Assembly (NCBI GenBank): GCA_944381435.1
Contig: CALWLD010000003.1
Location: 1-64,000, forward strand
DNA: 64,000 bases
Origin: an uncultured Clostridia bacterium
Lineage (GTDB): Bacteria > Bacillota > Clostridia > Lachnospirales > CAG-274
Reading direction: 5' to 3'
A program made the translations under genes and the position numbers. Below are positions 33,924 through 36,974 of the stretch, in pieces. Within the stretch, counting starts at the first letter, position 1, and each line of letters starts with the position of its first letter. A model generated the notes under the pieces. That model worked only from the letters and a program-made list of their open reading frames with translations. It had not been told where the DNA came from and did not search any database.

Positions 33924-36311
33924 TTAATTCCCCATTGCTTTTTTAGGGTAAACAAAAGATATTATTCCACCTATTAAACTTAAAAGATATACTATGCTTC
34001 CTAATGGGTTACCAACAAATATTAGCTTTGCTATAACAAACTGTAAAATAAATATAATACCCCACATAATAGCTAAATTTTTATTTATTTTATTAAATAA
34101 CTTTGTTTTAGATACACTTTCTATAAATCCAAGCTTTGTATATTGAGATAATACATTTTCACCTTTAAATGCAAATATTATTAAAGAAATAGGCAAAATA
34201 AGCTCAGAATATATATAAACTTCACCTCCAAATATTTCTTGTATAAAGAACATTAAAGAAAATGTTATAATATTTATTTTTTCTAGTGTAGTTATTTGAT
34301 TTCTTGTATATTTAGGTTTTAAAATAGGTATTATTAAAATAGTATAAAAACTAGCAAATGAAGCATATATAGATATATCTATACTTAATATATGTATATT
34401 AGATGTAGCCCAATAAAAAATAAATGGCACTAAAGCTAACGGAAATATAATATCTCCTCTTACTAATTTTCTTTCCGGTTTATCCTCTTTTATCTCTGAA
34501 GGTTCAAATATTTTTGTTAATGCTCTAAATTTTTCTATGTTACCTTTAAGCTCTAGGCTACCTTCTCTAAAAGCTGTTTCTCCTGTTATTTTTTTATTAG
34601 ATATATTACACCATATTTTATAATCACATATAATTTCTGTGTCTATATCATTGTTATCTTTATCTAAATAAATTTTACCATTTTCAATTTTAATTACATA
34701 TGCTTTATTTATATCTTTAAAATTAAATTTATATTTTGCTATTAAATTTTTTGCATTTTCTTTATTTCCCTCTTCTATCATACCAGCTATAAACATATTA
34801 GGTTCTAAAAGAGTATCGTTATTTTCTATTTTTTCATCTTTGTATTTATCCTTTACTATCCTAGAACAAAATACACCAGATAAAATGGCACCTTGATATC
34901 CTCCTCCTGGTTGTGTCCAAGCACTAGATAAATATAGGTTTTCAAAAGGTGTTTTCGTTTTTAATCTATCAAATCCACCATTTTCTATATCTTGTGCAAA
35001 TCCATAAACTGCACCTTTTTTATTATTTGTGTATCTTTCCATAGTTCTTGGTGTACCAAGCTCTGTTATTACAACGTGACCTTTTGTTTTAGGGAAATGT
35101 TTATATAATCTTTCTAAAAGTATATTAGTAACTTCTTCTTTTTTGGTTTTATACATTTCCGTTTCTCTTTCAGGCCAATTTTCTTCAAAATCTGCAAGAG
35201 TAATACATATAAATCCTGTATCTTTATTTAAGTTAGGGTCTAGCAAGTTATAGTTTACAAGGCCAAAATGTACTTTTTCATAGTTAGCTTGTTTTGCATA
35301 CTCGTATCCTGTTTGAGATGTTTCTTCATAGTCAAAAAAGAAATCTGCCTTATCAAGCCCTAGCTCTGTTGGGTCGCAATCTGTACCTATGTATAATTGT
35401 GTTAGGCTACAACCTATATCTTTATCTTTTATATTTTTTATATATTCATTTGCTACTTGTTTATTATCCATACAGTTAAAGAGTTTTTCTGTACAACCAT
35501 TTAGTATAAAAATATCTGCTTTAAATTTTCTTCCTTTATCTGTTATAACAGATACAACCTTGCCGTCTTTAGTTTCTATATTTACAACTTCTTCTTTTAA
35601 TACAATATGCCCACCGTTTTCTTCTATTATGTCTGTAAAAGCTTTGCTTAAGGCACCAGAGCCTCCTTCTATATAATATGTTCCTCCTATATGGTAACCA
35701 AGCCAAGCCACTAAATAATAATATGCATTTATTTTTTTTGCAGGTAAGCCATAATATAGCCATAAAAATGAAAATAAATCTATACACTTATCATCATTTA
35801 TATATTGTTTTAAAAAATCATAAAGGGTAATACTTTGTAATTGATGTATGTATTTAGGTAGTTCTCTATTTACCCAAACATTTTTTTCCATATCTTCATC
35901 AAATGTTTTTAAAAAATCAAATAATTTTTCTAAGCCTTCTTTTTCGTTAGGGAATTTATTTATTATATCCTGCTTATATTTTTCAAAACTATCAGGAACA
36001 TCAAAAAAATCACCATTGTTAAACATTACTGTTGCTGTTTCTTTTTTCCTAAGAGGCTTAACCTTTTCAAAGATACCTAAATCATCTAAAGATTTATAAA
36101 AACTTCTATCTTTATTTAAATCTCCTATGCCGTGTAAAGATACATCAAAAATAACTTTTTCTCCTGTTTTTGCCTTTCTCGTAAAGTTTGTAGCATATCC
36201 TCCTGCTACAAAGTGCTTTTCTATAACTGTAACGTTATATCCAGCTTTTGCAAGACTTGCTCCTGCAGTTAACCCTCCCATACCTGAGCCAATAATTACA
36301 ACATTTTTCAT
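33924..36311 (-). CDS. FAD oxidoreductase - SCP-2 - membrane domain fusion
   Basis: 795 residues in three parts. Residues 1-495 are a phytoene desaturase/carotenoid isomerase/retinol saturase-type oxidoreductase: VVIIGSGMGGLTAGASLAKA with the FAD-binding GxGxxG, ITELGTPRTMERYTNN and the C-terminal WTQPGGGYQGAILSG. Residues about 505-605 look like an SCP-2 sterol/lipid-carrier domain (AYVIKIENGKIYL, CDYKIWCNISNKKITGETAF, REGSLELKG). Residues 620-790 hold about six membrane spans ending ISFVYPKK. I infer oxidation, reduction or isomerisation of a polyisoprenoid or other lipid at the membrane, with the SCP-2 part presenting the substrate. The frame is uninterrupted, so the fusion is real. Its start lies 12 bp after the HAD gene stop. 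Confidence 0.8.
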   Translation of the reverse strand: MKNVVIIGSGMGGLTAGASLAKAGYNVTVIEKHFVAGGYATNFTRKAKTGEKVIFDVSLHGIGDLNKDRSFYKSLDDLGIFEKVKPLRKKETATVMFNNGDFFDVPDSFEKYKQDIINKFPNEKEGLEKLFDFLKTFDEDMEKNVWVNRELPKYIHQLQSITLYDFLKQYINDDKCIDLFSFLWLYYGLPAKKINAYYYLVAWLGYHIGGTYYIEGGSGALSKAFTDIIEENGGHIVLKEEVVNIETKDGKVVSVITDKGRKFKADIFILNGCTEKLFNCMDNKQVANEYIKNIKDKDIGCSLTQLYIGTDCDPTELGLDKADFFFDYEETSQTGYEYAKQANYEKVHFGLVNYNLLDPNLNKDTGFICITLADFEENWPERETEMYKTKKEEVTNILLERLYKHFPKTKGHVVITELGTPRTMERYTNNKKGAVYGFAQDIENGGFDRLKTKTPFENLYLSSAWTQPGGGYQGAILSGVFCSRIVKDKYKDEKIENNDTLLEPNMFIAGMIEEGNKENAKNLIAKYKFNFKDINKAYVIKIENGKIYLDKDNNDIDTEIICDYKIWCNISNKKITGETAFREGSLELKGNIEKFRALTKIFEPSEIKEDKPERKLVRGDIIFPLALVPFIFYWATSNIHILSIDISIYASFASFYTILIIPILKPKYTRNQITTLEKINIITFSLMFFIQEIFGGEVYIYSELILPISLIIFAFKGENVLSQYTKLGFIESVSKTKLFNKINKNLAIMWGIIFILQFVIAKLIFVGNPLGSIVYLLSLIGGIISFVYPKKAMGN

Positions 36312-36323
36312 ATTTTCACCTTC

Positions 36324-36974
36324 CTAAAAATAATTTAATAAGTCTAATACATTATTTACAATAGCGTCTGCCTTGTTATCTGTAAGTTCCTTTTCATCTC
36401 TAAATCCCCAAGTAACACCTATTGTATACATATTAGCATTTTTACCTGTTTTAATATCTGTGTCTGTATCTCCTATATAAGCACAATCTTTAACATCAAT
36501 ATTAAGCTTACTTGCAATTAATAATGCACCATAAGGATTAGGCTTTTTGGTTTCTTCATTTTTATAACCTAAAACCATATCAAAAATATTATTTCCAAAT
36601 ATTTTATCTACCACATCAAGAGTTCTTTCGTGAGGTTTATTAGATAAAACTGCTAGCTTAACCCCTTTTTCTTTAAGCTCTTTTAAAACTTTATCTATAT
36701 CTTTAAAAGGTACAACCCCTTTAGTGCAATCTTTTACAAATATGTTTTTATAAATTTGATAAACCCTATCTAGCTTTTCATAGTTTGTATCACCACTTGC
36801 ATAAACTGCTCTTTTTACAAGCTCTAAAGCACCATCACCTGCAAAGTATTTATATTCTTCAATCGTTCTTTCTTGAAGGTTATTTTCTTTTAAAGCCTCA
36901 TTACAAGCATTAGCTATTGAGCCGATAGAATCTACTAACGTACCATCTAAATCAAAAATTGCTAACTTTCTCAT
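36324..36974 (-). CDS. HAD-superfamily phosphatase (phosphoglycolate phosphatase-like)
   Basis: 216 residues. Motif I is FDLDGTLVDS (7-16), motif II VLSNKP, Lys of motif III in KKPNPYGALL, motif IV YIGDTDTDIKTG. The small helical cap places it with Gph/PpaX enzymes. The substrate cannot be fixed: 2-phosphoglycolate, pyrophosphate and others are possible. Directly upstream of the oxidoreductase fusion, 12 bp apart. Confidence 0.85.
   Translation of the reverse strand: MRKLAIFDLDGTLVDSIGSIANACNEALKENNLQERTIEEYKYFAGDGALELVKRAVYASGDTNYEKLDRVYQIYKNIFVKDCTKGVVPFKDIDKVLKELKEKGVKLAVLSNKPHERTLDVVDKIFGNNIFDMVLGYKNEETKKPNPYGALLIASKLNIDVKDCAYIGDTDTDIKTGKNANMYTIGVTWGFRDEKELTDNKADAIVNNVLDLLNYF

Follow-up and report, generated by a model that had tools for sequence, protein, structure and literature searches.

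A CrtI-type flavoprotein joined to an SCP2 domain and a six-helix membrane module in one genus of Clostridia

Introduction

What might an anaerobic bacterium do with a single protein that joins a carotenoid-type oxidoreductase, a lipid carrier, and a membrane domain? The question is raised by a stretch of 64,000 nucleotides from an uncultured Clostridia bacterium of the family CAG-274 (GenBank contig CALWLD010000003.1, positions 1 to 64,000; hereafter the window). There, a first-pass annotation had described a continuous frame of 795 codons with this domain order and proposed in-membrane modification of a polyisoprenoid, sterol-like, or fatty lipid. The frame is indeed continuous and lies on the minus strand, which that annotation had left unspecified. 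Its three-domain reading was also correct: Pfam and NCBIfam matches together with predicted structure confirm the oxidoreductase, the SCP2 domain, and the six membrane helices (Table 1).

Table 1. Position of the fusion gene, its encoded domains, and adjacent features in the window
Feature	Coordinates	Strand	Basis or remark
Three-part protein CDS	33924..36311	minus	795 aa, ATG start; orthologs in 8/8 genus genomes; purifying selection
CrtI/CrtISO-type FAD oxidoreductase (Amino_oxidase superfamily), residues 1-490	34842..36311	minus	Pfam/NCBIfam/PDB matches and motifs
SCP2 lipid-carrier domain, residues 515-602	34506..34769	minus	Pfam and predicted fold
Six-helix membrane module (TM6), residues 606-795	33927..34496	minus	Model, homologs, inner-loop charge
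Shine-Dalgarno AGGAAGGTG	36317..36325	minus	Overlaps HAD gene stop codon
HAD-superfamily phosphatase gene, phosphoglycolate-phosphatase-like	36324..36974	minus	12 nt upstream of fusion CDS

Results

The fusion is a conserved gene

The fusion frame is a real gene, neither a chance frame nor an assembly artifact, since full-length orthologs occur in seven of the eight genomes of the genus (the eighth is split by a contig end) and dN/dS lies within 0.12–0.35 in all three parts (FAD part 0.12–0.25, SCP2 0.16–0.35, membrane part 0.24–0.33; four genome pairs). The orthologs are 61–78% identical to the window protein. On the plus strand the same interval contains many stops and is closed. A tblastn search against plasmids returned 191 records, none with at least 80% query coverage. 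The HAD gene lies directly 5′ of the fusion gene in 8/8 genus genomes (in G006 at a contig end), with a gap of at most 40 nt in the seven that carry both genes on one contig, and the two are probably cotranscribed. Its product matches HAD_2 (3.9e-38, Pfam), the closest NCBIfam models being those of phosphoglycolate phosphatase (PGP), below their cut-offs; it looks like a soluble housekeeping phosphatase and gives no hint of a lipid. Judged by similarity to the window genes and named by eye, a ribonuclease-Y-type gene farther upstream is kept in 7/8 genus genomes and branched-chain ABC genes downstream in 6/8.

Domain composition and predicted topology

The N-terminal part belongs with CrtI-type flavoproteins at some distance from every named member. 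Pfam reports Amino_oxidase (3.5e-17, residues 11-266) and NAD_binding_8 (4.6e-11), and the best NCBIfam models are CrtD (5e-38), carotenoid isomerase (2.5e-37), and CrtI (2.6e-35), the last aligning over residues 4-493 and so across the whole FAD domain. The amino-oxidase/CrtI relationship first proposed for this region is therefore borne out, at scores far below the curated cut-offs: the CrtD and CrtISO models give 129–131 bits (cut-offs 550–587) and the CrtI model gives 122 (cut-off 238). No named CrtI, CrtD, CrtISO, or CrtO model reaches its cut-off (best 131 bits vs. 549.7). The closest solved sequence is 4rep, named gamma-carotene desaturase (1.2e-20). The FAD-binding motifs GxGxxG...E and, C-terminally, GGGYxGAxLxG are intact and conserved in 7/7 aligned orthologs.

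SCP2 (PF02036) is matched at 6.8e-9, with 36.4 bits against a gathering cut-off of 21.3. Structure prediction for the whole chain (7 sequences) was too poor (57.6) to reveal whether the parts touch or to serve in fold searches, but residues 488-795, modeled apart from a 32-sequence alignment (A4, the window plus 31 loci), gave a mean pLDDT of 84.2 and a pTM of 0.58, with an SCP2 fold (pLDDT about 80–94 over most of its length) followed by six long helices. Against solved SCP2-like domains the modeled SCP2 part scores Z of about 10–16, with Foldseek concordant. It most closely matches the C-terminal domains of alkylsulfatases (Z up to 15.9), while human SCP-2L gives 13.1–13.2 (1ikt, 13.1) and UbiJ (6h6p) 11.6. 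Profile and fold thus agree on the SCP2 assignment. SCP2 domains are described as lipid-binding, and that of UbiJ is reported, in the available text of PMC6747719, to bind quinone intermediates.

The six-span membrane domain is likewise present in the model, with helices at about 619-637 (kinked), 646-664, 675-694, 698-714, 737-764, and 769-793. No Pfam family matched this module, here called TM6, and its profile found a chance-level match alone among PDB sequences (0.31). Among 32 sequences, net positive charge occurs in the segment before helix 1 in 24, in loop 2-3 in all 32, and in the C-terminal tail in 31, whereas the outer loops are net positive in 0, 5, and 5; loop 4-5 is mixed (17 positive, 11 negative). 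Because loop 2-3 and the C-terminal tail are positive and the outer loops seldom so, both ends of TM6 are probably cytosolic, in which case a redox domain could occupy either end.

The SCP2-TM6 half is shared with a second flavin enzyme

We surveyed samples of genomes rather than all existing ones. Profile A2 represents SCP2-TM6 and profile A3 represents TM6 alone, the latter built from 12 sequences of four architectures (three from the genus, nine of other forms). These rows match A3 by construction; finds independent of its building include G706, G738, G651, G768, G680, G588, G763, and G823. Surveys with A3 scored up to 8 candidates per genome; in the class survey with profile A1 just 2 were scored, so that its misses mean little. 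The order FAD-SCP2-TM6 is fixed in 8/8 genus genomes, and none of the other genomes examined showed it; among 48 genomes of the family it occurs only in those 8, and six others gave short FAD-region matches. Across Clostridia, the full architecture is confined to one genus, whereas the SCP2-TM6 half is widespread.

In the phylum sample, A3 found TM6 homologs in 26/398 genomes, the window's among them. Twelve genomes encode TM6-CrtI proteins, with the membrane part first (G513, G618, G689, G706, G717, G656, G763, G570, G742, G589, G799, and G823), and nine encode FMN-reductase-SCP2-TM6 proteins (G585, G490, G753, G738, G651, G768, G680, G588, and G656, the last carrying both forms). The FMN-reductase-SCP2-TM6 protein of G585 reads as two frames, probably through a frameshift. 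TM6 stands alone in four genomes (G792, G452, G555, and G552); G717 has an additional short copy, and G579 has one TM6 fragment. In the class sample, TM6 homologs occur in 16/391 genomes, window included: FMN-reductase-SCP2-TM6 in 12 (G332 also has a short SCP2-TM6), SCP2-SCP2-TM6 in G268, and truncated frames in G061 and G187. Searching 196 genomes of the order with A2 added G960 and G859; the latter encodes a permuted TM-SCP2-FMN-reductase protein (L109 901-2646), and A3 recognizes its TM part at 1.8e-6. Domains of representative relatives were checked with Pfam; the SCP2 of L143 is unreported there and was placed by alignment alone.

In the FMN-reductase-SCP2-TM6 proteins, the N terminus is an NADPH-dependent FMN reductase of flavodoxin-like type, where the window protein has its CrtI-type domain. 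The SCP2-TM6 halves of the two are homologous, as profile matches and the alignment of 32 sequences indicate, and the TM6 tree does not speak against one clade (AU 0.39). Our main new result is that the SCP2-TM6 base also carries another flavin domain, unrelated to the CrtI type; TM6 itself is a common module reused in several architectures. Three standalone TM6 relatives (G452, G555, and G552; loci L156-L158; A3 E 2e-9 to 3e-13) score above the cut-off of NF041646, the model of the VC0807 family/septation protein A; the window TM6 has no match to it, and the intermediate L099 matches at 1.5e-9, below the cut-off. We found no paper on VC0807 in the open-licence PMC literature.

Several neighboring genes are recorded here as observations; neighbors lacking a Pfam or NCBIfam call were named by eye. 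In 3/5 loci with wider flanks (L127 5697-6248, L129 6285-6842, L130 6493-7095), the FMN-reductase-SCP2-TM6 gene directly adjoins a gene for a PadR-type regulator, which suggests small-molecule induction of this form. A nitroreductase-like gene (L124 10071-10880; weak NCBIfam Acg-family match, below cut-off) follows the TM6-CrtI gene of G689 at a distance of no more than about 10 nt, and none was seen at the other TM6-CrtI loci compared, several of them short. The window genome itself encodes, on another contig (C16, about 4700; L104 1498-2883), a 462-residue FMN-reductase-like protein that ends in SCP2 and has no membrane part. Its gene adjoins one read by eye as dapF, and two other genus genomes have a similar SCP2 match. 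That this protein donates electrons to the window enzyme is speculation.

CrtI-type domains and TM6 were likely joined twice

The FAD tree comprised 45 FAD domains, after leaving out those with E >1e-20 or <380 profile positions covered and one duplicate genus locus. In it the window clade and the TM6-CrtI clade, as labelled groups, each receive 100/100 support and are not sisters. Their union as one clade was rejected (p-AU 0.013; the group was named after the tree had been seen, and branches are long). A single origin of both CrtI-TM6 architectures was accordingly discarded, and the separate FAD clades together with the AU result make two separate joinings likely. In the TM6 tree, from which two short TM6 frames were left out, the window genus groups with G268 (100/99), and placing every form with a C-terminal SCP2-TM6 in a single clade is not rejected (p-AU 0.39).

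The FAD group closest to the window clade comes from seven class genomes (L079, L183-L188), with fork support of 89/90, below the starred level and with long branches. In 7/7 of them a gene resembling FNR/2Fe-2S NAD(P)H:ferredoxin reductases adjoins the CrtI gene (called by Pfam in G297, by similarity at E ≤3e-79 in the remaining six, and by NCBIfam for two). An acyl-CoA-ligase-like gene also lies beside the CrtI gene in G297, confirmed in 1/7 of the group. If these neighbors are partners, electrons would be fed into the flavoenzyme and an acyl substrate is plausible. No FNR-like gene was found in the stretches taken around the fusion gene in the window genus.

Three further observations rest at least partly on genes named by eye. 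A TetR-like gene precedes the CrtI-like/FNR pair in four of the seven loci of the closest group. At L077 (5980-14114), a CrtI-like gene directly precedes a gene for a 2180-aa polyketide synthase; by profile A1 in the class survey this CrtI-like gene is the best FAD-domain match outside the genus (1.9e-69). At L080 and L081, two CrtN-like genes are lined up with a glycosyltransferase-like and an acyltransferase-like gene, an arrangement that recalls clusters for C30 carotenoid glycolipids; the longer CrtI-like protein there has a cysteine-containing tail.

Missing pathways narrow the substrate

The genus lacks the genes expected for several candidate lipids. SQS_PSY (PF00494, phytoene/squalene synthase) was found in 0/33 genomes (those bearing TM6 plus G402), including none of the eight of the genus, compared with 7/14 controls, and on this basis an endogenous carotenoid, squalene, or sterol precursor was rejected as the substrate. 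The UbiA prenyltransferase (PF01040) was found in 0/8 genus genomes but in 14/14 controls (25/51 genomes overall), which removes a prenylquinone. Since UbiA is also absent from six further TM6 genomes (G738, G651, G960, G403, G859, and G268), a prenylquinone is not the substrate common to the TM6 family either. PF09989 (DUF2229/PlsA-type), which we take to be a marker of PlsA and which is also present in other activases, was found in 23/32 genomes: it is missing from all eight of the genus and from G268, and present in 23 of the other 24. A plasmalogen substrate was rejected in turn. The genus genomes are 81–99% complete, so one absence may be a gap, but hardly eight. Because the genus is without SQS_PSY, UbiA, and PlsA-type genes, it is unlikely to supply the enzyme with a carotenoid, squalene, quinone, or plasmalogen of its own, and the candidate substrates left are fatty-acyl lipids, lipids of the undecaprenyl kind, and lipids acquired externally. 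The original idea of a lipid-modifying membrane enzyme is still the best one, with a fatty-acyl or polyisoprenoid (undecaprenyl) lipid possible, while its sterol-like option, like any endogenous carotenoid, is disfavored (SQS_PSY and UbiA both 0/8).

Proposed mechanism and alternatives

Our tentative reading, which we hold with slightly less than even confidence, is a membrane-anchored, cytosol-facing flavoenzyme that reduces or isomerizes a C=C bond in a lipid chain, with SCP2 presenting the lipid. TM6 would serve as the anchor in the cytoplasmic membrane, leaving both protein ends cytosolic, and may open a lateral path that lets a lipid leave the bilayer. SCP2 would hold the hydrocarbon chain of that lipid and present it, the shuttling role first suggested for this domain being compatible with its fold, and the CrtI/CrtISO-type FAD domain on the cytosolic side would reduce or isomerize a C=C bond in the chain. 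In the genus a membrane fatty-acyl lipid would rank first as substrate and an undecaprenyl-type polyprenyl lipid second. The data establish the domain identities, the SCP2 fold, the constant order, selection on the gene, the modular nature of TM6, and the absent pathways, whereas we infer topology, substrate class, reaction direction, and the role of SCP2 as carrier. We prefer reduction or isomerization for three reasons: an NAD(P)H reductase is the partner in the sister group, FMN reductase domains occur in the remaining SCP2-TM6 proteins, and reduced FAD is required by carotenoid isomerase, one of the named relatives that match best.

One possibility, which we regard as unlikely, is a detoxification reductase: hydrophobic electrophiles in the membrane (quinone-like or xenobiotic) would be collected by SCP2 and reduced, and the cell's own lipids would not be the substrate. 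Quinone and azo reductases belong to the FMN reductase superfamily represented in the sister architecture, there are weak matches to KefF and azoreductase profiles, and the PadR-type gene beside that form in 3/5 wider-flank loci fits the same idea. The window gene, however, has a HAD gene as its neighbor and no adjacent regulator, quinone pathways are absent from the genus, and the usual targets of CrtI-type enzymes are double bonds between carbons in long chains. Distinctly improbable, in our judgment, is a lipid taken from the surroundings (a polyunsaturated fatty acid, retinoid, carotenoid, or sterol of dietary or host origin), by analogy with biohydrogenation. This would explain why the FAD domain resembles carotenoid isomerase and desaturase profiles in a genus with no endogenous C30/C40 isoprenoid pathway, but no lipid-uptake gene was identified beside the fusion gene, and retention of the gene in 8/8 genus genomes suggests a constant substrate.

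We give very little credence to a noncatalytic lipid escort, in which a fold of the FAD/GDI type would take up a prenyl chain and hand it over between SCP2 and the membrane with no redox step; Rab GDI has the same fold and relatives show weak GDI profile matches, yet the FAD-binding motifs are retained in 7/7 aligned orthologs and the other architectures join the module to flavin domains. A true, membrane-tethered carotenoid enzyme (a phytoene/diapophytoene desaturase or carotenoid isomerase) is the least probable reading and already disfavored, since the named profiles and solved relative that it would rest on (CrtD, CrtISO, CrtI; 4rep) are countered by bit scores far under the CrtD, CrtISO, and CrtI cut-offs and by SQS_PSY in 0/8 genus genomes vs. 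7/14 controls.

Discussion

Each domain of the window protein is known, or remotely so, and the combination appears to be undescribed: the open-licence PMC literature yielded no account of a FAD-SCP2-TM6 protein or of one that joins SCP2 to an FMN reductase, and no well-characterized family of the same domain order was found there. Several systems share one feature with it. CrtI, CrtISO, and CrtD enzymes align with the FAD domain over its full length, but the window protein scores far below their cut-offs, adds SCP2 and six helices, and is encoded in a genome without phytoene/squalene synthase. The TM6-CrtI proteins, from 12 genomes of other lineages of the phylum, combine the same two kinds of domain in reversed order, lack SCP2, and fall in a separate FAD clade. 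The FMN-reductase-SCP2-TM6 proteins have the same C-terminal half, with a flavodoxin-like FMN reductase replacing the CrtI-type domain. The alkylsulfatases SdsA1 and Pisa1 share an SCP2-like C-terminal domain (Z 15.9), but they are sulfatases and have neither a flavin domain nor a membrane part.

Two comparisons bear on function. UbiJ and UbiT of ubiquinone synthesis are bacterial SCP2 proteins that serve redox enzymes acting on a membrane lipid, and UbiJ is reported to bind hydrophobic intermediates of that pathway; according to the available text (PMC6747719) they are separate proteins, unfused in Escherichia coli, and their quinone pathway (UbiA) is absent from the window genus. The ladderane clusters of anammox bacteria contain CrtI-like proteins, likewise in anaerobes, that are proposed to act on fatty acyl chains, and two that were tested made no lycopene (PMC2649909, PMC4790861). 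The available portions of these papers mention neither SCP2 nor a membrane domain, and acyl activity is a proposal there. As a precedent, the ladderane case concerns CrtI-like proteins other than carotenoid desaturases; it is no proof of acyl activity.

The occurrence of TM6 on two unrelated flavin enzymes points to an undescribed mode of membrane-lipid redox chemistry. A broader proposal, which we consider possible though on balance doubtful, is that SCP2-TM6 is a general membrane chassis for such chemistry in anaerobic Bacillota: a six-helix lipid-extracting domain plus a carrier, to which at least two unrelated flavin folds would have been fitted separately, allowing lipids to be reduced or isomerized in place without oxygen or quinones. 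Because the SCP2-TM6 half is common to two flavin enzymes, a function for several unnamed families could be assigned together from a single series of lipid assays. If the flavoenzyme reading holds, it would provide a testable function for a membrane module without a Pfam family and would give anaerobes a route for altering the double bonds of membrane lipids after their synthesis.
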